A DNA stretch of 64,000 nucleotides from Thermodesulfovibrio yellowstonii DSM 11347. GTDB lineage: Bacteria > Nitrospirota > Thermodesulfovibrionia > Thermodesulfovibrionales > Thermodesulfovibrionaceae. Shown here piece by piece: positions 14,854 through 60,175 of the stretch (position 1 is its first letter; each line of letters starts with the position of its first letter). The notes under the pieces are model-generated. The model saw only the letters and a program-made list of their open reading frames with translations, was not told the origin of the DNA and ran no database searches. The translations under genes and the position numbers were made by a program. The stretch spans positions 1,106,001-1,170,000 of the forward strand of contig NC_011296.1 in assembly GCF_000020985.1 (NCBI RefSeq), read 5' to 3'.

Positions 14854-15641
14854 GCTTTCTTGGTATAGACATTGGTTCAAGATACATTAAAGCTGTTCTA
14901 ATTGAAAAAGGGACGGTTATAGATTGGTTTAAAATTGAAACATCCTACGAACCTCTAAAGAGAAGTTTAGAAATTTTAAAAAAATACAGTCCAATTAAAG
15001 CTGTTGCCACAGGTTATGGGAGACATCTTTTGAGTTTCAATGGAAATATTCCAACAATCACAGAAATTAAAGCCTTTGCAATTGGTGCAAGGGCTTTAAT
15101 GCCTTCTTGCAGAACCATAATTGACATAGGAGGACAGGATACAAAAATAATAAGTCTTGATGAAAGGGGAAATATAAAGAAATTTGAGATGAATGACAAA
15201 TGCTCAGCAGGAACAGGTAGATTTCTTGAGATAATGGCATCGGCATTGGCATACTCAATTGACGAATTTGGGAAAATAGAAGGAGAAATTGAAAGTCCCT
15301 TACAAATTAGCAGTATGTGCACTGTTTTTGCTGAATCAGAGGTTATTTCTCTTATATCAAAGGGGATATCCCGTGAAGAAATTGCCATAGCAATTCATAG
15401 AGCCATAGCAAAAAGGGTCATATCAATGCTTAAAAAGATATCCTTAGAGGAAGATATTGTCTTTGCGGGAGGATGTGCAGGAAATAGACTTCTTAAAAAA
15501 CTTATTGAAATTGATATCGGAAAGAGAATACTAATTCATGAAAAACATCATTTTGCCGGTGCTTTAGGCGCTGCAATTTATGCAGAAAAAAGCCTTATAG
15601 AAGAAGGAGGAGAGAAGGAGAATGAAAAGGTTTATTGTTAA
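14850..15641 (+). CDS. ATP-dependent activator of the double-cubane reductase (BcrA/BadF/HgdC family)
   Basis: ASKHA-fold ATPase that forms a homodimer with one bridging [4Fe-4S] cluster and injects a low-potential electron into its partner. ATP-site motifs are GIDIGSRYIKAV at the N-terminus, IIDIGGQDTKII (about 90-100) and FAGGCAGN near residue 205. The cluster cysteines expected for the family are in NDKCSAGTGRF and SSMCTVFAESE. 263 residues is the usual size for the YjiL/HgdC class. The ATGA overlap with the upstream gene indicates coupled translation, so the two products probably act together. Confidence 0.9.
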   Translation: MSFLGIDIGSRYIKAVLIEKGTVIDWFKIETSYEPLKRSLEILKKYSPIKAVATGYGRHLLSFNGNIPTITEIKAFAIGARALMPSCRTIIDIGGQDTKIISLDERGNIKKFEMNDKCSAGTGRFLEIMASALAYSIDEFGKIEGEIESPLQISSMCTVFAESEVISLISKGISREEIAIAIHRAIAKRVISMLKKISLEEDIVFAGGCAGNRLLKKLIEIDIGKRILIHEKHHFAGALGAAIYAEKSLIEEGGEKENEKVYC

Positions 15642-16425
15642 AATTTTTATCTTACTATCAATAAGTTTCATGGGCTTCAATTTTTCACAGGCTTCTGAAC
15701 AGTTTGATATTAATGACTCAATAATCAATGATAAATTCGAAGTTCCCCAAATATCTACAAATGAAATGAAAAAAGCATTAAAGAATGGTGCATTAATCAT
15801 TGATAACAGACCATACTTTGAATGGGCAGTAAGTCATATTCCAAGTGCAGTAACAGTATCACCAAAGCCCGGTATTAGTAAAGCTCTATATACCTCTGAC
15901 AAAGAGGAGATAAAGAAATTAGCAAATAATGACAAAAGTAAACTAATCATCTTGTATTGCGATGGCATATACTGTGGAAAAACAAAGCGAGTTTCAAAAG
16001 AACTCGTCCAAGAAGGATTTAAAAATGTTTACAGATATCAACTTGGTATTCCTGTATGGAGAGCTCTCGGCAATCTTACACAGTGCGAGATTGAGGGCAT
16101 AAGGTATATTTATGAAAAAGACGGAACAGCATATTTCATTGATAGCAGAAAAGAAGAGGAATTCAAATTTAAAGCTCTAAAGAACTCCAAAAACATACCT
16201 TTTGATAAAGTGATTGAAGGAAAGGATGTGGGTGAAATTTTCAAGGCAAAGGAAGATGGTAGATTACCTGTTGAAGACAGAAACGCAAGAATAGTAGTTT
16301 TTGGTAAAGATTTAAAACAAACTCTTAAAGTTGCTGAGGGATTGACAAAAGAGGCATTTCATAATGTTTGTTACTATACCGGAAACCTTGAGGATATTTT
16401 AAAAATTGAGGGAAATAAGAATTAA
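15622..16425 (+). CDS. exported protein with two rhodanese-like domains
   Basis: An N-terminal hydrophobic segment (about residues 5-24, ending FSQASEQ) looks like a Sec signal peptide, so the protein is probably periplasmic. The first rhodanese domain runs from about 45 to 155 and has Cys113 in LYCDGIYCGK, followed five residues later by Cys118 (Cys-X4-Cys). The second (about 165-265) is degenerate: VVFGKD replaces the active-site loop and no Cys is present. The start lies inside the activator gene (20-base overlap) after GGAGGAGAGAAGGAG, so it belongs to the double-cubane operon. The Cys-X4-Cys pair aligns with Cys-X4-TGA in the gene at 38861-40213. Substrate unknown. Confidence 0.8.
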   Translation: MKRFIVKIFILLSISFMGFNFSQASEQFDINDSIINDKFEVPQISTNEMKKALKNGALIIDNRPYFEWAVSHIPSAVTVSPKPGISKALYTSDKEEIKKLANNDKSKLIILYCDGIYCGKTKRVSKELVQEGFKNVYRYQLGIPVWRALGNLTQCEIEGIRYIYEKDGTAYFIDSRKEEEFKFKALKNSKNIPFDKVIEGKDVGEIFKAKEDGRLPVEDRNARIVVFGKDLKQTLKVAEGLTKEAFHNVCYYTGNLEDILKIEGNKN

Positions 16426-27441: not shown

Positions 27442-28431
27442 TCAATATGGTGACAGTTTTGTTAACTGTCCTGCATAAACTATTGCTGCTCTTAAAATCA
27501 GTGTTCCGGCAAGAACAAGCACTGCTGCAAAATTCATTCTAAAAATCTGAGCCTTAGTAAACTCTCCATGAAATCCGTCTTCAAACTCTTTTAGTTCACC
27601 AAGTTTGATTCTTAATGCAAGAGGTAATAGTAGAAATATAGCTATCAGCGCTATGCTAAAAATAAAATGTTCACTTGTTAGTGAAAAGAAAGGCTCAATT
27701 GCTTTCTTGTATGGTGCTGTTGATGTATAAAGTCCATAAAAGAAAAGAAGTATAACCACAAGCTCTGCAACGATTAACCATATATCAATCTTTGTAAAAA
27801 GAAACTTTATTTCTGGCTTTTTTGCAATAATAACTATCATAGCTGCACCAGAAGAAAGAGCAGAGACTAAAAAGAGAATTGGTAGTGTTGCATTATTCCA
27901 AAGAGGGATCGCTGCAAAAGAGCTTAAAAGCACACCTGTATAAATTCCAAGAAATATTCCAAGAGCAAAATTCAATTTTGCAATTGTCCTCATTTTTGGA
28001 GCAAACTTTTCTGCAAGTTTTATTAAAAATGGTAATTTTAAGCGATGCCTTTGTTCCTTAGGAATTACAGCTAAGATATAAAGTGCATTTCCCAATAAAA
28101 CAGCTGGAACTCCCCATGTACCCCAAGACATGAGAGAAAGAGGTTGAAACGTTAAAAAACCCCAGATAAGACTTTGAGGTTTACCGAGGTCTATCATTAT
28201 GAACTGAGCACCAATAGCAAGAGTTATAAAAGCAATAAGAGGAGCTCTCACACACTGGGCAAGCTCTTCCACAGGTTGTTTTGGAATTCTTAAGTTAGCA
28301 ATTGAACACATAACAAGCATTCCTGCAGAAAGTCCACCAAGAAATAAATATATTACTATTCTCCAATCCCAAACCTCTAAATGGGGAAAGGTTATTGCAT
28401 TTGTTCCAGTTATACTTAGTTCTATCATCAT
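27442..28431 (-). CDS. nrfD: NrfD/PsrC-family membrane subunit of the molybdoenzyme
   Basis: Quinone-reactive membrane anchor of a polysulfide-reductase-type complex. 329 residues with about eight to nine hydrophobic helices. The family start is visible as WDWRIVIYLFLGGLSAGMLV, and the centre has a GTWGVPAVLLGNALYI stretch. Last gene of a three-gene operon (catalytic, Fe-S, membrane); its start overlaps the Fe-S subunit stop by four bases. It would pass electrons between menaquinone and the periplasmic subunits. Confidence 0.9.
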   Translation of the reverse strand: MMIELSITGTNAITFPHLEVWDWRIVIYLFLGGLSAGMLVMCSIANLRIPKQPVEELAQCVRAPLIAFITLAIGAQFIMIDLGKPQSLIWGFLTFQPLSLMSWGTWGVPAVLLGNALYILAVIPKEQRHRLKLPFLIKLAEKFAPKMRTIAKLNFALGIFLGIYTGVLLSSFAAIPLWNNATLPILFLVSALSSGAAMIVIIAKKPEIKFLFTKIDIWLIVAELVVILLFFYGLYTSTAPYKKAIEPFFSLTSEHFIFSIALIAIFLLLPLALRIKLGELKEFEDGFHGEFTKAQIFRMNFAAVLVLAGTLILRAAIVYAGQLTKLSPY

Positions 28432-28985
28432 AGACCTCCTGCAAATTTCTTTTTAATGTAAAAAACTCTGGGGCGCGTTCCAGCAAACTCAAGTCTCACA
28501 GATGAATCATATTTTCTTAACAATTCCGCTACTTCACTGTTTGAGTCTTCAAGATCTCCAAATATTCTTGACTTTCCAAGACATGTTTCAACACAGGCAG
28601 GTTTTTTGCCTTCCTTAAGTCTATGTTCACAGAAGGAGCATTTATCTGCATATCCCTTAGGATGAGAATATCTTGCATCATAAGGACACGCTAAAATACA
28701 GGCTTTACAGCCTATACATTTTTTTCTGTCTATCTGAACTGTTCCATCCTTTGCCCTGTGAGATGCTCTCGTTGGACAAGCATCTATGCATGGAGCTTCT
28801 TCACAATGATTACAGAGTTCACTTCTTAATTCCATTCTAAGACTCGGGAATTCTCCTCTTACTTCTTCTACAACGCGGGTTCTGAAATGCTCTTCAGGCA
28901 CATTGTTTTCTTTTTTACAGGCAATTACACAAGCCATGCATCCAATACATTTTTCCACGTCTATTACCATGACATACCTTGGCAT
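28428..28985 (-). CDS. four-cluster ferredoxin-like electron-transfer subunit (PsrB/DmsB type)
   Basis: 185 residues with four cysteine groups typical of [4Fe-4S] electron-transfer subunits of molybdoenzymes: CIGCMACVIACKKEN, CNHCEEAPCIDACP, CIGCKACILACPYDAR, and CSFCEHRL ... CVETC. It would wire the catalytic subunit to the membrane subunit on the outer face of the cytoplasmic membrane. It has no signal of its own, as expected for a partner hitch-hiking with a Tat substrate. One base separates it from the catalytic gene. Confidence 0.93.
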   Translation of the reverse strand: MPRYVMVIDVEKCIGCMACVIACKKENNVPEEHFRTRVVEEVRGEFPSLRMELRSELCNHCEEAPCIDACPTRASHRAKDGTVQIDRKKCIGCKACILACPYDARYSHPKGYADKCSFCEHRLKEGKKPACVETCLGKSRIFGDLEDSNSEVAELLRKYDSSVRLEFAGTRPRVFYIKKKFAGGL

Positions 28986-28986
28986 A

Positions 28987-31179
28987 TTAGACCTCCTTAG
29001 TAATCTTCACAAAGTTCACCCTCATACCTACACTTCCAGAAATTGGGTCAATTGCATATTTTGTTATCAACTGCTGATCATCAGCACCTCTTAAATATGC
29101 TCTGTGAAGAAGTTTTGATGTTGAACAAAATCCATGAACAAGATAAATGCAGTCTGGTCTAATTCTTTCTGTCACCTTTGCTCTAACTTTGTTACTTTTT
29201 ACTCCATCCTGATTTACCAAAACAATGTAATCTCCATGCTTCAGTCCCATTCTTTTTGCAACTTTTGCATTTATCCAAGCTACATTTTCTTCCATAAGTT
29301 CCCAAAGTGAAGGATTATTTGTTGTTCGTGAAAATGTATGAACTGGTGCTCTTCCATATATGAGCCTAAACCACCCTTCAGAAGGTTGTTCATGTTTTGT
29401 ATATTTTGGAATAGGATCAAAGCCATGTTTTTTCAATTCATTACTGTAAAGTTCAATTTTGCCTGAAGGCGTTTTAAATTTATAATCCTCTCCTTGAGAA
29501 AGATAGGGTTTAGCACTCTCTGGGAAGTCAATATATCCCTTTTGGCCAAGTTCAGCGTAATCAATTCCCCAAGCTTCAGCTTTTGCTTTCAAAAAGTCAT
29601 CAAAGGTATTCCATGGAAAGTATTCTTCAAGACCAAGCCTTTTACCAAGCTCTTTTGCTATCCACCAGCCAGGTTTTGTATCATACATTGGCTGAACCAC
29701 AGGCTGACGGAAAGATATTCCAAAACTTCTTTCTTTCACTGTAAAAAAGTCATCATGTCTTTCCAGATAGGTGCACTCAGGAAGGACCACATCAGCAAGC
29801 ATGACTCCGTCATAAGGCATCATGTCAACTGCCACAAGCAAGTCAAGCCTTTGGACAGCATTCAGAGTATCCCTTTGATTTGGCATAGCCTTCATTATGT
29901 TTGTTCCCGTTATAAACCATGCTTTTATTGGATAGGGATCCTCTGTAAGAGTTGCCTTTACAATAGCATGTGTTACTCCCTCTTCTCCTGCAAAAGGATA
30001 GTTTCCCTTATTTATCGCTGGTTTTTGTGGCTCAGGATAATCTTTGTCTGAAAGAAATACAGGTTCAAGTTTTTTCTTTGGATTTAGATATATGCCTCCA
30101 GGTCTTCCATAGGCTCCAAGAATTGCTGTCAAAATAGCAACAGCACGTTGTCTCTGAACATTATCAGAATACCAAGCAGTGTGTCTACCCGGATGTATTA
30201 AAACATTGGGTTTATTTTTACCTAATACTCTCGCGGTCTCAACAATACGTCCCGCAGGAATTTCTGTCTCTTTTTCTGCCCATTCTGGAGTATATTCCTT
30301 TACTGCTTGCGAGACTTCATTAAAGCCTGTGGTGTATTTTGCTACATAATCTTTATCATAGAGTCCTTCATTTATGATTATATTAATCCATGCAAGTAAA
30401 ATTGCTAAATCAGTTGTAGGTTTTATTGGTAACCAGTATTTTGCCTTACCTGCTGCAGTTGAAAATCTTGGGTCAAGAACAATAACTGTAGCACCTTTTC
30501 CTACAGCTTCAGCAAATTCTTGACATTGAGAATTGTGGGCATTTTCACCAAGATGACTTCCTATGAGAACAATTGCTTTGCTATTTTGTAGGTCAAGTCT
30601 TTCCGGATTTCCTACATCCTCTCCAAAGGTAAGTTCAAAAGCAACACCTCTTGCACCTCTACAGAGAGCAAATGAAGGCATGGCAAAATTTGGTGAGCCA
30701 AAAGCCTGAAGTAAATGCATAAAATATGTTGATACAGTTCCATGAGTTAGTAATCCTACTGATTCTGCTCCGTATTTTTCTTTAATTTTCTGCATCCTGT
30801 CAGCCACATATCCTAAGGCTTCATCCCATGATGCTTTTTTAAATTTAGCCTCACCTCTTGAGCCTGTATTAATTAGCGGAGTTTTTAGCCTGTCAGAATC
30901 ATAAAGAAGTCCTATACCGCCATGTCCTCTTGCGCAAAGCTTTCCACGAGAGTTTGGATGTAGAGGATTGCCATCAAGTTTAACAACTTTGCCATCCACA
31001 ACCTTGGCTATCACGCCACAGCGCCAAAAACACATTTCACAGGTAGTAGGAACATACTGGGGCAAAGAAACAGGTTTTTTGCCAAGAGCTAATACAGATT
31101 TTACAACTGGGGTGCTTGCTGCCGCGACACCGCCTGTTACAGCTGCAATTTTGAGAAAATCTCTCCTGGTAATACTCAT
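28987..31179 (-). CDS. Tat-exported molybdopterin oxidoreductase, polysulfide/thiosulfate reductase type
   Basis: Catalytic subunit with a bis-MGD cofactor, 730 residues. The Tat signal is SITRRDFLKIAAVTGG. An N-terminal [4Fe-4S] site is formed by CEMCFWRCGV and GKLCARGHGG. The probable Mo-ligating residue is the Cys in SFALCRGARG, as in PsrA/PhsA rather than the Ser of DMSO reductase. The gene order catalytic / four-cluster / NrfD matches psrABC. Likely substrates are polysulfide, thiosulfate or tetrathionate; sequence alone does not decide, and the direction could be oxidative. A GGGGGTGAGGGT site precedes the start and a good promoter lies at 31217-31245. Confidence 0.9.
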   Translation of the reverse strand: MSITRRDFLKIAAVTGGVAAASTPVVKSVLALGKKPVSLPQYVPTTCEMCFWRCGVIAKVVDGKVVKLDGNPLHPNSRGKLCARGHGGIGLLYDSDRLKTPLINTGSRGEAKFKKASWDEALGYVADRMQKIKEKYGAESVGLLTHGTVSTYFMHLLQAFGSPNFAMPSFALCRGARGVAFELTFGEDVGNPERLDLQNSKAIVLIGSHLGENAHNSQCQEFAEAVGKGATVIVLDPRFSTAAGKAKYWLPIKPTTDLAILLAWINIIINEGLYDKDYVAKYTTGFNEVSQAVKEYTPEWAEKETEIPAGRIVETARVLGKNKPNVLIHPGRHTAWYSDNVQRQRAVAILTAILGAYGRPGGIYLNPKKKLEPVFLSDKDYPEPQKPAINKGNYPFAGEEGVTHAIVKATLTEDPYPIKAWFITGTNIMKAMPNQRDTLNAVQRLDLLVAVDMMPYDGVMLADVVLPECTYLERHDDFFTVKERSFGISFRQPVVQPMYDTKPGWWIAKELGKRLGLEEYFPWNTFDDFLKAKAEAWGIDYAELGQKGYIDFPESAKPYLSQGEDYKFKTPSGKIELYSNELKKHGFDPIPKYTKHEQPSEGWFRLIYGRAPVHTFSRTTNNPSLWELMEENVAWINAKVAKRMGLKHGDYIVLVNQDGVKSNKVRAKVTERIRPDCIYLVHGFCSTSKLLHRAYLRGADDQQLITKYAIDPISGSVGMRVNFVKITKEV

Positions 31180-31245: not shown

Positions 31246-31303
31246 TAGTTTTTCAAATAGGCTATGGGGGTATAATATAAGTGTGATAATTGATAAAGAA
31301 AAA

Positions 31304-31747
31304 ATGGATATAAAAAGAAGGTTCTTTCTAAAGAAAATGCTAAAACTATTTTTTACTTTTGTAGCATTAATATTTTCTTTTTTAGGGCTATCACTCTTAA
31401 AACCTGCAAATCCTAAAAAAAAGGAATACAGTTACTATGAAATACCAGAGGATAAGATTCCGAAAGAAGGAGTAAAAAAAATTAATATAGAAATTGGAAA
31501 CTTGCAAAAATCCTTAAAAATCTATCTTGTAAATGACGGAGATTCAATAATTGCTCTTTCTCCTGTATGCACCCATCTCGGCTGTTTTGTAAATTTTGAT
31601 AAAAATTCCAATGAATTTATATGTCCATGCCATGGTGGAAAATATGACAGTGAAGGGAAAGTCTTGAAATGTCCACCCAAAGAGCCTCTTCAAAGACTTC
31701 CTGTTAAAATAGAAAATAAAAAGATTTTTGTGGGAATAAAAATATGA
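31304..31747 (+). CDS. Rieske [2Fe-2S] protein
   Basis: High-potential iron-sulfur subunit of a quinol-oxidising cytochrome bc/b6f-type complex. The N-terminus KRRFFLKKML reads as a Tat motif followed by one transmembrane anchor. The cluster ligands are in CTHLGC and CPCHGGKYD. 147 residues from ATG 31304; a GTG at 31283 is in frame but would sit only seven bases after a TATAAT (31271-31276), so I prefer the ATG. The stop overlaps the cytochrome b start by four bases. Confidence 0.9.
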   Translation: MDIKRRFFLKKMLKLFFTFVALIFSFLGLSLLKPANPKKKEYSYYEIPEDKIPKEGVKKINIEIGNLQKSLKIYLVNDGDSIIALSPVCTHLGCFVNFDKNSNEFICPCHGGKYDSEGKVLKCPPKEPLQRLPVKIENKKIFVGIKI

Positions 31748-32388
31748 ACCTCATTGATTGGTTTCTTGATAGATTCAGACTTAAATCTACTCATAGAGGC
31801 ATTTTTGATAGAGACATCCCTGAAGGAATCAATTATTTTTACTGTTTCGGTGGTATTGCCTTTACTGCCTTTCTTATATGTCTCGTATCAGGGTTATTCC
31901 TTTCCTTTCATTATATTCCTTCTGAAAAAGAAGCCTATCAAAGCATTTTAAGAATTCATGAAGAGGTTTTCTTAGGAAAACTTCTCAGAGGAATTCACAA
32001 GTGGTCTGCCAATGTCTTGATTGTAAGCATAATTATTCATTCAATTAGGGTTTTTGTAACTAAAAGCTATCGTCCACCAAGAGAGCTTAATTGGATTGTG
32101 GGTTTAATTACCTTTGTTATTGTAATGCTTGAGGGCTTTACAGGATATCTACTACCATGGGATCAAAAGGCATATTGGGCTACAGTGGTTGGAACAAACA
32201 TAGTAGGTAGTATTCCTTTTGTTGGTCAAGCTTTGCTACTGATTGTAAGAGGAGATTATGAGGTATCAGGTGCTACTCTTTCAAGATTTTATAGTCTTCA
32301 TGTGCTGTGGTTTCCAGGTCTCATCATTCTTCTGCTTTGGGCACATTTTCATATGATTAAAAAACTCGGAATATCAAAGCCTCTATGA
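31744..32388 (+). CDS. petB: cytochrome b6-type subunit (haem-bearing N-terminal part)
   Basis: Four-helix quinol-oxidising subunit, 214 residues. The two histidine pairs are clear: HKWSANVLIVSIIIHSIR (13 residues between) and HVLWFPGLIILLLWAHFH (14 between). The 14-residue spacing in the fourth helix is the b6 rather than the mitochondrial b pattern. GFTGYLLPWDQKAYWATVV is the Qo-side signature. It ends after four helices and the remaining helices are in the next gene, so cytochrome b is split. Confidence 0.92.
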   Translation: MNLIDWFLDRFRLKSTHRGIFDRDIPEGINYFYCFGGIAFTAFLICLVSGLFLSFHYIPSEKEAYQSILRIHEEVFLGKLLRGIHKWSANVLIVSIIIHSIRVFVTKSYRPPRELNWIVGLITFVIVMLEGFTGYLLPWDQKAYWATVVGTNIVGSIPFVGQALLLIVRGDYEVSGATLSRFYSLHVLWFPGLIILLLWAHFHMIKKLGISKPL

Positions 32389-32744
32389 AAAAGAAATTTT
32401 ATCCCGATTACTTGATTGAGATTTTGTTTGTTGCCATTCTGACTTTTGAGTTAATACTGATTCTCACTTTTCTTTTTACACCCCTAATAGGTAGAGAGAT
32501 TGATTTTATTGCTGCCTATCAGCCAAGACCAGAATGGTATTATCTATGGCTTTTCTGGCTATTAAGATTCTTCTCTACTGATACAGTTTTTATAGGTGGC
32601 GTTTTATTACCATTAGGCATACTATCATTTTTAATCTTGATTCCCTGGATTGATAAAAAGATAGGCTGGAAATTGACAGCTTTGATAGCTTTTGCTTTTT
32701 TGTTGATATTTTTAATAACCACCATTATTGAAGCTATTTCCTAA
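32385..32744 (+). CDS. petD: subunit IV-like C-terminal part of split cytochrome b
   Basis: 119 residues, three hydrophobic helices, with the Qo-site motif PEWYYLWLFW that replaces PEWY of long cytochrome b. Four-base overlap with the upstream gene. Rieske, b6 and subunit IV genes are contiguous, but no c1/f-type cytochrome gene follows; the transcript runs into a decayed transporter gene. The electron acceptor must be encoded elsewhere. Confidence 0.88.
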   Translation: MKKKFYPDYLIEILFVAILTFELILILTFLFTPLIGREIDFIAAYQPRPEWYYLWLFWLLRFFSTDTVFIGGVLLPLGILSFLILIPWIDKKIGWKLTALIAFAFLLIFLITTIIEAIS

Positions 32745-36922: not shown

Positions 36923-38809
36923 CTAAAACTTATGCTCAGGATTATGCAAAAGAATCTGTCTCAGTGTTTTCAATTCCTTATCACTAAATCTGCCTTTAAG
37001 TCTTTCAAGTTTTACAAGATTTTTTTTGTAAAGCCTCTCATACTCTTTATACTTTTTCTTATCAAATCTAATACTAAAATCTCCGGGGATAAACCATTTA
37101 TCAGTTAGATAGAGCCATGAGGCAAACTGAGATAGCTCAAAGCCCTTCAATACCTTTATCTTACTGTGCCAGAAATCCTTTAATCTTAACCCTTTTTCAT
37201 CGGCAACTATTTTATATCCTCCTTTAAATGGTTCTGCTCCCTGAATGTCTTCATACTGCCATGTTGAAACAGAAGTTTGAATGCTACTGTGGCAACTTTT
37301 ACAGTCCCTTGCTTTTCCAAATGGATGTGCTACTTCCTCAATTTGTAACCAAAGCAGATGTTTATCTCCTGAAGGAAGTCCATCAAAGGTACCGATAATT
37401 GCATACATATCCCTTGTTTCACCATTGGACCATCTAAATTTTATCTCTGTTGGTGCTACATCTTTCTTAATATTACTTACACTATGGGGAAAAATCTTAA
37501 CGGGAAACCATATGCCTTTTTGGTCTTTCATTAATATAAGAGGCTTTTGAATTCCGTAATAGAGAGAGTATTTTTTAAACGGATTAGGCTTTTCACCTAT
37601 GTATCCCTTACCCCAGACTGTTATCTGATATCCACCTGCCTCTGTTACATGACAGGCTGTACAGGTGAGATTCCTATGAACTGAGTTTGTAAGGGCTTTC
37701 TCTATCTCAATATGACAGTCTCCACAGGTTGCCTTACGTTGCATATCACCCATTCCTTTTTTACCTGTTTGGTGACAGTCTACACAGTGAATTCCCTTTG
37801 TAAAATGAATATCTGGCTTTCTTCCTTGAGGAATTGAATAAAACTTCCCTATATAGGTTTCTCCTCTTCTTGAGTGCCCTGAGCCGGTATGGCAGACTGA
37901 ATTTCCTCTTCCTCTTCCCATGCAACTCAATGAATCTGGAACTTTTATGAAGGCATGAGTGCCTCTTTCTCTGCTTGGTGCATAGTGGCAGTCAACACAT
38001 CCAGCATGGCATACATTGCAAAGTCTCTGTTTTGCAATTGCTTGTTCGGTAGTAAATGAAACATTTATTTCCTTTCTTATCTTTTCAGTATTTGTGAAAT
38101 CAAACTCTGCGATTTTAAGTATTTCCTCTGGAGGTAAATCTGCAAAGGATGGACCACAGTTGTGTGGTCCATAGGGTTCAAGCCATGTCTGCATAGTTCT
38201 TTGACGATAGTTTGTCGCCATTGTTGTGCTTCTGAATTGTTTTAACTCTTCTTGGTGACAACCTCTCTTTCCACATGTTTTTTCAGCTATTTTAGGATCA
38301 AAATTAAAAGTATAAGGATTTCTATCATGCCAGAGAATATTTCGCACCTCAGGATGAAGAGATACTCCATCATTTTCTCTCTTTTTTGGAAGAAGCTCAA
38401 AAAGAGCATTTCCCCCCATTGGAAATATTTTGTTTAGCTCTATCTCTTCCTTGCTGTAAACTTTGCTTCTCTCCACTGGTTCCGCACTTTCATTGACAAA
38501 GATTGCTTTTAACATTCCCTTATGTGCTTCATCTTTATCGTGAGCTCTTCCGTTACCTAAGTGACAGTCCCTACATTGAACTGTTTTATGTCCTGTCTGT
38601 TTTCTTACTTCTCCAAGTGTAACATAAAATTGAGGATATCCAAGCTCAGCCATTTTTTCCTTTGAACTGTGGCAATTTATACAACTTTCAGATGAATCCA
38701 TGTAGTATCCATAGCCTAAAAAGCCAACTATAAGTAGAAACTGAAGAAAAAAAACTGTTACAGTAAAAGGAGTAGCGAGATCACTTATTTTACCAAGTTT
38801 GAAGGACAT
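36923..38809 (-). CDS. membrane-anchored multihaem cytochrome c, 8 to 10 haems
   Basis: 628 residues: an N-terminal anchor helix (about 15-36) then a periplasmic domain with eight CXXCH motifs, beginning at residues 43, 79, 264, 271, 342, 362, 383 and about 533. Two atypical candidates follow the CX(n)CH form: CGKRGCH at 179 (CX4CH) and C296...CH307 (CX9CH). Electron transport from the quinone pool is likely, since the start resembles NapC/NrfH-type anchors, but no enzyme family is recognised. The long haem-poor segment 390-525 is beta-rich. It is followed on the same strand side by rhodanese genes, hinting at sulfur chemistry (inference). Confidence 0.85.
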   Translation of the reverse strand: MSFKLGKISDLATPFTVTVFFLQFLLIVGFLGYGYYMDSSESCINCHSSKEKMAELGYPQFYVTLGEVRKQTGHKTVQCRDCHLGNGRAHDKDEAHKGMLKAIFVNESAEPVERSKVYSKEEIELNKIFPMGGNALFELLPKKRENDGVSLHPEVRNILWHDRNPYTFNFDPKIAEKTCGKRGCHQEELKQFRSTTMATNYRQRTMQTWLEPYGPHNCGPSFADLPPEEILKIAEFDFTNTEKIRKEINVSFTTEQAIAKQRLCNVCHAGCVDCHYAPSRERGTHAFIKVPDSLSCMGRGRGNSVCHTGSGHSRRGETYIGKFYSIPQGRKPDIHFTKGIHCVDCHQTGKKGMGDMQRKATCGDCHIEIEKALTNSVHRNLTCTACHVTEAGGYQITVWGKGYIGEKPNPFKKYSLYYGIQKPLILMKDQKGIWFPVKIFPHSVSNIKKDVAPTEIKFRWSNGETRDMYAIIGTFDGLPSGDKHLLWLQIEEVAHPFGKARDCKSCHSSIQTSVSTWQYEDIQGAEPFKGGYKIVADEKGLRLKDFWHSKIKVLKGFELSQFASWLYLTDKWFIPGDFSIRFDKKKYKEYERLYKKNLVKLERLKGRFSDKELKTLRQILLHNPEHKF

Positions 38810-38860: not shown

Positions 38861-40213
38861 TTAGTTTTCTGTTATTTTATATTTGCCGCCTTTTTTAATC
38901 TGAATGGTTGCATCAAGGAATTTTACATTGTATCCTGCTTCTTTAAGTATGTTGTAAGCCATTTCTGCTCTCATTCCAGTTGCACAGTGAACAACTATTT
39001 CTTTATCCTTTGGTAGTTCATTAAGCCTATCCTTAAGCTCGTTTACTGGTATGTTTTTAGCCCCTTTTATAATACCCATCTGTGTTTCCTCAGGATCTCT
39101 TACATCAAGTATAATCACATTGGCTGGAATTTTTCCTATAATCTTCTTGAATTCCTCTATACCAATTGTCCCGTGTTTTGGCTTTGGAATATATACAATC
39201 TCTTTCTTTAACTGTCCGGATAAAACCTCTCCACCAGCTTTCTTCCATGCTTCTATCCCACCTTCAAGATAAGAGGTATTTACATATCCCCATTTTCTTA
39301 TAATGTCAAAAGCTTTAAGTGAAAGTTTATCCTGTGTGCAATAAATTATAATCGGTGCATTTTTCTGTTTAGGGAATAATTTTTTTGCCTTGTCAAGTTC
39401 CGCGAGAGATATATTAATAGCACCCTTTATATGTTCCTTTTCTGCTTGCTCTCTTGGTCTTACATCAACCAATACATGAGGAATGTCTTTACTGATAAGT
39501 TCTTGTAAATACTTGACTGTTGAGGCAACAGGATAACCTTGTTTTTTCCACTCAGGAAGTCCATCTACAAATTGCTTTACATTGGTGTAACCTAATGCTT
39601 CTGCTCTCCGAGCAGATGAAGGCGTAAGAGCTCAAGTAGGACCTTGACAGTAGTATACAATTGAACTATTTTTATCCTTCGGTAATTTATCAATATGTTT
39701 ATCAAACTCTGCAAACCAGATGTTAATTGCACCAGGTATATGTCCCTCATTATATCTACCAGCAGGTCTACAATCAATTATGAGTGCACTTTTTGCATCA
39801 TAAATTTTTTTCATTTCATTAACTTTTATAACCTTTGAAGGGTCCACGGCAACTGGCGGTTTTACATTAATTAAAGTGGCGTAGAATTCGCCATTTTTCT
39901 CTACATAAGTAATAGCAATCTCTTTTTCTTTTGGTAATTTATTAAGGGGTTGATTCCAATTCTTTAGTTTGGTATTTTCGTCAAATTTGACAGTCCATAA
40001 AGCACCTGTATCAATTTGAATCATCGCAGCTTTTCCAGAGACAGTCTTCAAATTACCCCAAAGTTCTCCTTGCTTTGCAGTGTGACAACCAGGCAAAGAA
40101 CATCCCTTAGCTATGATAGGCTTTTGTTGAGATATACCCTGAGAGGCTAAAAAAGCTAAACATAAAGCAAAAATCAAACAAGTCAAAATCAAAGTTCGCC
40201 CTTTTTTACTCAT
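38861..40213 (-). CDS. exported three-rhodanese protein with in-frame TGA, probable selenoprotein
   Basis: Read through the TGA at 39634-39632 this is one 450-codon gene: signal peptide (about 1-28), a small domain with CSLPGCH (C38, C43, H44; CX4CH haem-like), a beta domain to about 130, then three rhodanese domains. Domain 1 carries YYC189-QGPT-TGA194 and continues ALTPSSARRAEALGYTNV, typical rhodanese helix. Domain 2 has Cys292 (IIYCTQ) and domain 3 Cys410 (VHCATGMRAE). The frame is open for 256 codons after the TGA. The paralogue at 15622 has Cys at the aligned site. A SECIS-like hairpin lies at 39600-39616. ATG 40213 follows AAAGGAGG. The alternative is a nonsense mutation. Confidence 0.7.
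39600..39616 (-). promoter_or_regulatory. candidate bacterial SECIS hairpin
   Basis: Perfect 7-bp stem TCTGCTC / GAGCAGA with apical loop GGA (or CGGAG if the closing pair opens) on the minus strand. The stem starts 15 nt and the loop 22 nt after the TGA at 39632-39634. Published bacterial SECIS rules ask for a loop 16-37 nt downstream with a G in the first two loop positions; both are met. Confidence 0.6.
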
Positions 40214-40235
40214 AAAACACCTCCTTTTTTCTATA

Positions 40236-40264
40236 AGTGTAACTTTATTTATAGATTTTGTCAA
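40236..40264 (-). promoter_or_regulatory. sigma70-type promoter of the TGA-containing rhodanese gene
   Basis: TTGACA (40264-40259), 17-base spacer, TACACT (40241-40236), minus strand, about 23 bases before the ATG at 40213. Confidence 0.65.
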
Positions 40265-40387: not shown

Positions 40388-40852
40388 ATGAAAAGATGGA
40401 GCAAGATTCTAATTGTAATCAGCCTTGTATTAATGTTAAGTAACTTTACTTTTGCAGCTACCCCATTAAGCGATGAGAGAGTTAAAGAAGCTAAACAATG
40501 TGGAATTCAGGAAGTTGATGTAAATTCCGCTAAAGAGTTGATTAAAAAAGGTGCAGTGATTTTAGATGTTAGGGAATATACTGAGTATGTTGCAGGTCAT
40601 ATTCCAGGTGCAATTTGGGCTCCAAGAGGATTATTAGATTTTCAGGCTTATGATTGGTTGCCAGATAAAGAAAAAACATATTTAGTTTATTGTAAGACAG
40701 GAGGAAGAGGAGCGGTTTCAAGTTGTGATCTTAAAAAACTTGGATATAAAAATGTCTACAATTTAAAAGGGGGATTTAATGCCTGGTCAAATTCTGGAGA
40801 GCCTGTAGAAAAAGGAGAGCCTCAAGGAATGGGTAAAGGTATAAAAAAATAG
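40388..40852 (+). CDS. exported single-domain rhodanese
   Basis: 154 residues: a signal peptide (about 1-23, ending FTFA), then one rhodanese domain with ILDVREYTEYVAGHIPGAIW and the active-site loop YCKTGGRGAVS (Cys102), ending LKGGFNAW. A Gly/Lys-rich tail follows. It probably acts on sulfane sulfur in the periplasm. Strong GGAGG site; starts a two-gene unit with the rhodanese 12 bases downstream. Confidence 0.88.
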   Translation: MKRWSKILIVISLVLMLSNFTFAATPLSDERVKEAKQCGIQEVDVNSAKELIKKGAVILDVREYTEYVAGHIPGAIWAPRGLLDFQAYDWLPDKEKTYLVYCKTGGRGAVSSCDLKKLGYKNVYNLKGGFNAWSNSGEPVEKGEPQGMGKGIKK

Positions 40853-40864
40853 GAAGGTGTTAAA

Positions 40865-41335
40865 ATGAAAGTCTTATTAGCAACTTTAGTAACTGTCTTA
40901 TTGTTTACCTTATCGGCTTTTGCTTATGATGTAGAGATGGCAAAAAAATTTGATGTCATGTTTTCTCAGATGACCCCAGAAGTTCTCGCAATGAGACCTT
41001 GTCAGATAACAACAAAAGATATACTTGAAATGATCAAAAAGAAAGAAGATTTTGTAATTCTTGACATAAGAACACCTGCAGAACAAAAACTTATAGCTCC
41101 TGTATGGAAAGACTCTCTTCTAATCCCAATGCATGAACTTTTTAAACCTGAAAACCTTGCAAAACTTCCAAAGAACAAAAAAATTGCAGTGCTGTGTCAC
41201 ACAGGGGATAGAGCTGCTGCTGCCACAATTGCCTTAAGAGCAGTTGGATTTTCCAATGCCTTCCAATTCAAAGGTGGAATAGCTGAATTTGCTAAAGAAG
41301 TAGGCAGGCTTGCAACAGAATATGTGAAAGAATAA
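40865..41335 (+). CDS. exported single-domain rhodanese
   Basis: 156 residues, signal peptide of about 20 residues (ending LSAFA), an N-terminal helix, then a rhodanese domain with VILDIRTPAEQ and the loop LCHTGDRAAAA (Cys111), ending FKGGIAEFAKEVG. The domain lacks the usual GHI-P-GA segment, replaced by LIAPVWKDSLLIP. It follows the previous rhodanese by 12 bases and is closed by a strong terminator. Confidence 0.86.
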   Translation: MKVLLATLVTVLLFTLSAFAYDVEMAKKFDVMFSQMTPEVLAMRPCQITTKDILEMIKKKEDFVILDIRTPAEQKLIAPVWKDSLLIPMHELFKPENLAKLPKNKKIAVLCHTGDRAAAATIALRAVGFSNAFQFKGGIAEFAKEVGRLATEYVKE

Positions 41336-51638: not shown

Positions 51639-51845
51639 GGAAGTCTAAGACTTCCAACTGGATAGGTCTTCCGGCTTTGGGCTTCCTTTACCTACTTGCC
51701 CGCCTTCCCATCATGGTCTTACCCATAACAGTGGCTTATGCTTCAAATTCTCCGAATGCTTTGAGACATCTGAAGCTCGGGCTTTCGTTCCCTACACGGC
51801 TGCGGGGCAGCGGGGGATTCTCACCCCTCTTCCCTTAATCCAGTT
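51639..51845 (-). ncRNA. cobalamin riboswitch upstream of btuB
   Basis: On the minus strand the class signature runs in order: GGGAAGAGGGGTGAGAATCC, CCGCTGCCCCGCAGCCGTGT, GCCACTGTTATGGGTAAGA, GGGAAGGCGGGCAAGTAGG and the B12 box AAGCCGGAAGACCTATCC (51677-51660). The region ends in a hairpin GGAAGTC-TTA-GACTTCC (51655-51639). It binds a cobamide and represses the downstream importer when B12 is plentiful. Confidence 0.95.
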
Positions 51846-51852
51846 AGGTTAA

Positions 51853-51882
51853 AGTATAACAAATTATATCCAGAGGTTTCAA
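51853..51882 (-). promoter_or_regulatory. promoter of the riboswitch-btuB transcript
   Basis: TTGAAA (51882-51877), 18-base spacer, TATACT (51858-51853) on the minus strand, immediately upstream of the riboswitch. Confidence 0.6.
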
Positions 51883-59825: not shown

Positions 59826-60175
59826 TGGTGGAGGCGGCGGGAATCGAACCCGCGTCCGAAGGTGCTACTTCTAAGCATCTACATGCTTAGTGGAAGTTTT
59901 AGGATTCGGAAGTTAGCTCGCCCTTCCACAGGCTCTCTAAGCTCCTACAACCCTTAGCTCTCCCTAAGGCATCGGGTTTGTGCCTTAGGATAGCTCTGAT
60001 TTATGACGCCTTGCCCAAGCCTCAGAGCAGAACTTGGGAAGACGGCTGCTTTTAATTAAGCAGCGAGTGCCAATTCGTTGTTGGCAGTTGTGTTTTCCCT
60101 ACCTGTTTTACGTGGTGGCAGGAACCACGGCATGCAGCTTAGCCCTCACTACCTCCGTCGAGTCCTTTCGCCCCC
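59826..60175 (-). ncRNA. ssrA: tmRNA
   Basis: 350 nt transfer-messenger RNA for ribosome rescue. The 5' end GGGGGCG pairs with the 3' CGCCTCC and includes G3-U70; the 3' ACCA is encoded. The tag frame reads GCC AAC AAC GAA TTG GCA CTC GCT GCT TAA, giving ANNELALAA. The 5' GGGGGCGAAAGGACTCGACG and T-arm GGGTTCGATTCCC are diagnostic. The last 24 bases are also the right junction of the island. smpB is encoded 10 bases upstream on the same strand. Confidence 0.97.
59830..59853. repeat. right junction repeat (3' end of ssrA)
   Basis: GGAGGCGGCGGGAATCGAAC and four more bases, direct repeat of 52096-52119 with one mismatch (G for A at the seventh base). It includes the tmRNA T-arm and acceptor 3' strand, a common attachment site of tyrosine integrases. 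Confidence 0.75.

Follow-up and report, generated by a model that had tools for sequence, protein, structure and literature searches.

Rhodanese-like selenoproteins have been published as forms 1–5 (PMC13188914), and rhodanese selenoproteins have indeed been found in metagenomic surveys, as the first-pass annotation of the DNA studied here had stated, namely in the Sargasso Sea and ocean surveys. Forms 1–4 (PF00581/NF041203; PMC13188914) share with the protein described below a bacterial rhodanese domain that has selenocysteine (Sec, U) in or near the catalytic loop; however, none of them is described in PMC13188914 as a three-domain protein with a haem motif. Form 1 (WP_010941598) is listed as UxxS, which, compared on the listed motif alone, fits the U-x-x-S of most relatives of our protein, the protein itself having U-x-x-T. 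Form 3 (NF041203, LYCAU) has CxU, whereas ours has Cys-x4-Sec, and the score of our protein against NF041203 (rhodanese_LYCAU), summed over three domains, is 99.9 of the 115 bits at which membership begins. Form 5, TsoB (NF045694, UxxxxU), has by its listed motif the reactive residues at the same loop positions, 1 and 6, and its rhodanese part aligns with residues 127–238 (E 1.6e-25). In contrast to our protein, which has Cys at position 1, TsoB carries Sec at both positions together with a DsbD-like part, and its description names neither a haem motif nor a triple rhodanese; our protein scores 89.3 of 805 bits against NF045694. None of the NCBIfam selenoprotein models reaches its cut-off on our protein.

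The best structural matches are the tandem-domain rhodaneses Pseudomonas thiosulfate sulfurtransferase (1yt8), EanB and YnjE, for which no Sec is reported; the whole-length TM-scores against multi-domain rhodanese structures are 0.19–0.28, and the likeness is therefore at the domain level only. Sud of Wolinella is a periplasmic polysulfide-sulfur transferase that serves Psr, and is a Cys enzyme of one domain, not known to carry haem or Sec. Our protein resembles Sud in setting and proposed role: it is an exported rhodanese near a Psr/Phs-type molybdoenzyme, with a proposed part in sulfane-sulfur handling. Sec rhodaneses are thus already known, but a haem-rhodanese selenoprotein, and in particular the architecture of a haem motif followed by three rhodanese domains, was not found described in the open-access literature.

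Here, we examined a gene in a 64,000-nt stretch (the window) of the genome of Thermodesulfovibrio yellowstonii DSM 11347. The gene and its parts are as follows.

38861..40213, minus strand: selenoprotein gene, complete, 450 codons including Sec194, for an exported product with a haem-c motif, an OB-like domain and three rhodanese domains
40130..40213, minus strand: predicted N-terminal signal peptide or membrane helix, residues 1 to ~28, hydrophobic in homologues as well (model helix 3–24)
40082..40102, minus strand: haem-c-type motif CSLPGCH (CX4CH), residues 38–44
39863..40066, minus strand: six-stranded OB-like barrel in AlphaFold models, residues 50–117
39521..39841, minus strand: rhodanese domain 1, with the loop Cys189-QGPT-Sec194 (model: strand 184–188, loop, helix 196–206)
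39647..39649, minus strand: codon of the catalytic Cys189
39632..39634, minus strand: in-frame TGA, codon 194, interpreted as selenocysteine
39600..39616, minus strand: bSECIS-like hairpin TCTGCTC-GGA-GAGCAGA, 7 bp, with the G-starting apical loop GGA, 15 nt past the TGA
39236..39517, minus strand: rhodanese domain 2, whose catalytic Cys is replaced in most relatives (IYCTKD, LYSYDT, VYDQKG and others)
38906..39172, minus strand: rhodanese domain 3, with a conserved HCxTGxRA loop and Cys410, invariant in alignment A1

The gene starts with the ATG at 40213, directly 5' of which inspection of the sequence finds the ribosome site AAGGAGGTG, and its frame runs through 193 codons to the TGA at 39634–39632 and then through 256 open codons to a TAA ending at 38861. 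Re-reading the gene bore out the earlier proposal that this TGA is the only one in frame, that it completes a Cys-x4-TGA arrangement in the first rhodanese loop (YYC(189)QGPT-TGA(194)-ALTPSSARRAEALGY), and that the protein continues as a rhodanese across it: a genome search reads through exactly one TGA, and PF00581 matches three domains (193.7 bits, E 8e-58, over the curated cut-off), which places the product in the rhodanese superfamily. An ORF finder splits the gene into two ORFs (39632–40264 and 38861–39472), as would be expected if the TGA were a true stop that ended a 193-residue haem protein, with the downstream part a separate or decaying ORF. However, the open run past the TGA is 256 codons here versus at most 67 among the 17 window ORFs of at least 150 amino acids that have a TGA stop, and dN/dS in a pairwise test was about 0.03 on each side of the TGA (against the relative L025, dN 0.045 and dS 1.84 upstream, dN 0.043 and dS 1.68 downstream). 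This strong purifying selection past the TGA, the recurrence of this TGA across dozens of species, where the only other common state is Cys, and the Sec machinery and covarying hairpin described below make a true stop extremely improbable.

Relatives at E 1e-15 or better are present in 76 of the 396 genomes of the phylum, and a collection scan with a 16-sequence alignment gave Thermodesulfovibrio (L099, L102 and L118) as named near relatives. The expectation that homologues would carry either Cys or TGA at codon 194 held for 78 of 79 named relatives from Nitrospirota, Desulfobacterota, SAR324, Betaproteobacteria and Geobacter-type genomes (62 TGA, 16 Cys, 1 neither), and an overlapping set of 58 full-length aligned sequences from the phylum gave 48 TGA, 7 Cys and 3 neither. 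The state switches between Sec and Cys at least 5–6 times on the tree, while the Cys189 column is invariant in both alignments (A1 and A2). The same TGA is present in many independent assemblies, and a misread TGC or TGT is therefore excluded; as for a general recoding of TGA, for example as Trp or Cys genome-wide, 17 of the window's 48 long ORFs end at a TGA in the ordinary way. Nothing was found in favour of error or recoding, and their joint probability is practically negligible.

The same design, with the haem-attachment motif in front, recurs in dozens of related bacteria. This widespread selenoprotein subfamily has no dedicated NCBIfam model and is therefore likely mis-annotated as two broken ORFs. 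One genome (G290) encodes both a Sec version (L111) and a Cys version (L117) of the full-length protein; as a naturally occurring pair, these would allow the contribution of selenium to be tested. More generally, what the protein gains from selenium can be tested directly on its natural versions with Sec and with Cys, which in some cases share a genome.

The 7-bp hairpin with a GGA loop starting 15 nt past the TGA, reported by the first-pass annotation, was found again at 39616–39600. It is a stem-loop close behind the TGA and has the hallmark of bacterial SECIS elements, a small apical loop containing G (PMC1088965). On its own the hairpin is unremarkable: the fold z-scores of the single hairpin are −0.5 to −1.5, and chance alone would place about 0.1 such 7-bp hairpins within the allowed spacing. 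Its significance stems from conservation. The hairpin lies at the same distance from the TGA in 82 distinct TGA genes, and a pair between two third-codon positions forms in all 82 of them (TA 43, CG 23, TG 16), compared with 7 of 19 (37%) Cys homologues, three of these 19 controls being divergent or possibly misaligned. Because both sites are synonymous, this pair is unexplained by protein conservation. The folding energy relative to synonymous shuffles differs only modestly, with a mean z of −1.15 for TGA genes and a higher −0.48 for Cys genes. The strong signal is the pair of third-codon positions, although its sequences are related and the shuffle p-values are thus not independent. Taken by comparison across genes, the hairpin is under selection at the RNA level.

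The host, a Thermodesulfovibrio and a sulfate-reducing-type bacterium, has a single-contig genome of 2,003,803 bases, and the proposed search of it for selA, selB, selC and selD recovered all four: selA (617 bits), selB (385 bits), selC (tRNA-Sec, anticodon TCA, i.e., UCA) and selD (376 bits). The selD gene has an in-frame TGA of its own, and this site in SelD (L055; KAAG-U-AAKIGPGDL) is an independent sign of active Sec decoding in the same genome. Among 36 genomes tested, selA was present in 35, and the single genome without it (G186) carries the Cys form of the rhodanese. Read-through of the TGA is supported because dN/dS is near 0.03 on both sides and the hairpin is conserved. On this comparative evidence, UGA194 is almost certainly decoded as Sec by the host's own SelA, SelB, SelC and SelD via the hairpin directly downstream, and it is near certain that the gene at 38861–40213 encodes a genuine selenoprotein.

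Behind the signal sequence, 77 of 79 relatives have a C-x2-4-CH motif, as CxxCH in most and as CX4CH in Thermodesulfovibrio, and its C and C-H are invariant in 42 aligned N-terminal domains; a CXXCH-type motif in an exported protein is that of a c-type cytochrome. Neither a recognised cytochrome c fold or family nor a convincing Pfam family was found for the N-terminal domain, whose best cytochrome match is Cytochrom_C552 (E 0.0025, in 8 of 42 members). The motif suggests covalent attachment of haem, with CX4CH as a less common spacing; the region has low confidence in the AlphaFold models, which were predicted without haem. The model of our protein has a mean pLDDT of 88.7. The OB-like barrel that follows has CusF as its best PDB match (E 2.5e-4, TM 0.56/0.70), a similarity at the fold level only, and structure matches support the rhodanese fold of the domains behind it. 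In the rhodanese loop of domain 1, Cys189 is at position 1 and Sec194 at position 6. Domain 2 is degenerate and probably structural. The conserved N-terminal haem-c motif, the OB-like barrel, the degenerate state of domain 2 and the surrounding genes for sulfur respiration and cytochromes are new relative to the first-pass annotation, which had proposed a redox or persulfide pair of Cys189 and Sec194. Such a pair may well form, and the loop geometry and the invariance of Cys189 fit it.

Based on these features, the protein is probably a periplasmic redox sulfurtransferase, a triple-rhodanese selenoprotein with a haem-c motif in which Cys189 would accept sulfane sulfur, Sec194 would act as the resolving residue and the haem would exchange electrons. 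In the proposed mechanism, polysulfide, thiosulfate or a protein persulfide would donate sulfane sulfur to Cys189, and Sec194 would attack the persulfide to give a Cys-S-Se-Sec bond (selenenylsulfide) and release HS-; electrons from neighbouring multihaem cytochromes could then regenerate the Cys-Sec pair via the haem. The reverse, oxidative direction would also be possible. Domain 2 would be mainly structural, and domain 3, with its HCxTGxRA loop, may serve as a second sulfur carrier. The protein may thereby act in the respiration or disproportionation of sulfur compounds, as a redox-coupled relative of the Sud-type periplasmic polysulfide carriers. Selenocysteine, rhodanese chemistry and a haem-c motif are in any case joined in one exported protein of sulfur-cycling bacteria.

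A more specific version of this proposal is that the Cys-Sec pair is connected through the protein's own c-type haem to multihaem cytochromes. In those Nitrospirota and Desulfobacterota that carry out sulfur respiration or disproportionation, the protein would then reduce (or oxidise) polysulfide or sulfane sulfur in the periplasm. We offer it tentatively, as a possibility that is rather doubtful at present. For elemental sulfur, the first step is still unknown (PMC8780430), and the mechanisms of disproportionation are incomplete (PMC12998232); if the haem connection were true, the protein would fill a gap as the first enzyme to act on elemental sulfur or polysulfide.

The genes around the selenoprotein gene bear on these proposals and on the alternatives to them.

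36923..38809, minus strand: c-type cytochrome with an N-terminal membrane helix and nine C-x2-4-CH motifs (nine haem motifs), directly downstream of the selenoprotein gene
40388..40852 and 40865..41335, plus strand: two divergent single-domain exported rhodaneses with Cys and no TGA, conserved as neighbours in the genus
27442..31179, minus strand: Phs/Psr-type molybdoenzyme operon (PhsA-like 28987–31179, Fe-S 28428–28985, NrfD/PsrC-like 27442–28431)
31283..32744, plus strand: Rieske Fe-S, cytochrome b6 and petD-like genes, as context

The Phs/Psr-like operon and the Rieske/cytochrome b6 genes lie within ~12 kb of the selenoprotein gene, and the operon, 6 kb away in the window, is linked to it by vicinity only. 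The nine-haem cytochrome, which has weak matches to ExtM, ExtN and NrfH, adjoins the rhodanese gene in the Thermodesulfovibrio relatives (L098–L101 and L118). In other lineages, 12-haem cytochromes follow the gene, either with a cytochrome b (L141) or alone (L136, L145), and the Sec gene of L111 is followed by a cytochrome of the octahaem tetrathionate-reductase family (542 bits to TIGR04315), a type for which nothing above the cut-off was found in the genus Thermodesulfovibrio. Eight-haem cytochromes follow the Cys genes of L155, L166 and L171, and a PhsA-like molybdoenzyme stands beside Geobacter-type Cys genes; the Cys loci with neighbours of these two kinds are L155, L159, L166 and L171. 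At most Nitrospirota loci, no conserved partner was found beside the gene.

An exclusive partnership between the rhodanese and the nine-haem cytochrome was also considered and was rejected: the cytochrome is kept in species that lost the rhodanese (G052, G079 and G087), and because it persists after this loss it is not an exclusive partner. In G052 and G079 (L190, L191), the selenoprotein gene is cleanly absent from its place between the genes for the nine-haem cytochrome and the divergent rhodanese, and in G072 (L193) the selenoprotein gene and the cytochrome are both decayed fragments.

This context of cytochromes and sulfur-oxyanion reductases also speaks against a function in periplasmic thiol/selenol redox protection, such as peroxide reduction or disulfide exchange, in which the rhodanese fold would be a scaffold for the Cys-Sec pair. 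The resemblance of Cys-x4-Sec to a redox pair, the free replacement of Sec by Cys among relatives, and the fact that the majority of known selenoproteins are thiol oxidoreductases (PMC9312934) would suit such a function, but domain 3 retains the rhodanese catalytic loop and neither a thioredoxin-fold nor a DsbD partner was seen next to the gene, and we consider redox protection unlikely.

A selenoprotein that reduces or detoxifies selenite, tellurite or metal oxyanions, comparable to the rhodanese ExtH and the cytochromes ExtM/N/O/P of Geobacter-type operons, appears less likely still. The adjacent cytochrome weakly matches ExtM, ExtN and ExtO, and the cytochrome b at 31744–32388 matches ExtP; however, all of these matches are under the family cut-offs (31.5/800, 24.9/200, 24.5/200 and 243.6/290 bits), ExtH is absent from the matches listed for the selenoprotein up to E 10, and no outer-membrane conduit was seen next to the window gene. 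A redox sulfurtransferase remains our preferred reading of the protein.

Several further rhodaneses were encountered. The exported rhodanese at 15622–16425 in the window has the Cys-x4-Cys sequence YCDGIYC that had been noted from the sequence; it has two domains, and in view of its match to the rhodanese portion of the TsoB model (68 bits, E 3.5e-19), it may be a TsoB relative with Cys. At nine loci (L086, L088–L092, L094, L096 and L183), single-domain exported rhodaneses of 130–160 amino acids have Cys-x4-TGA (FYCRGxGU, FYCSGSTU), and these probably represent a second, wider selenoprotein group, which occurs in this phylum and also in a Geobacter MAG. Another locus (L084; G203:C102, frame 0) has both loop positions encoded by TGA (FYUGGYHU), like the UxxxxU of TsoB, and may be decaying or mis-assembled because its frame breaks further on. 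Two Desulfopila-type genomes (L181, L182) encode paralogous three-domain lipoproteins with YCGGPTU and no haem motif, that is, the same Sec site in a lipid-anchored version. Finally, the window contains a cobalamin riboswitch (51644–51858) and a tmRNA gene (59826–60175), both on the minus strand.
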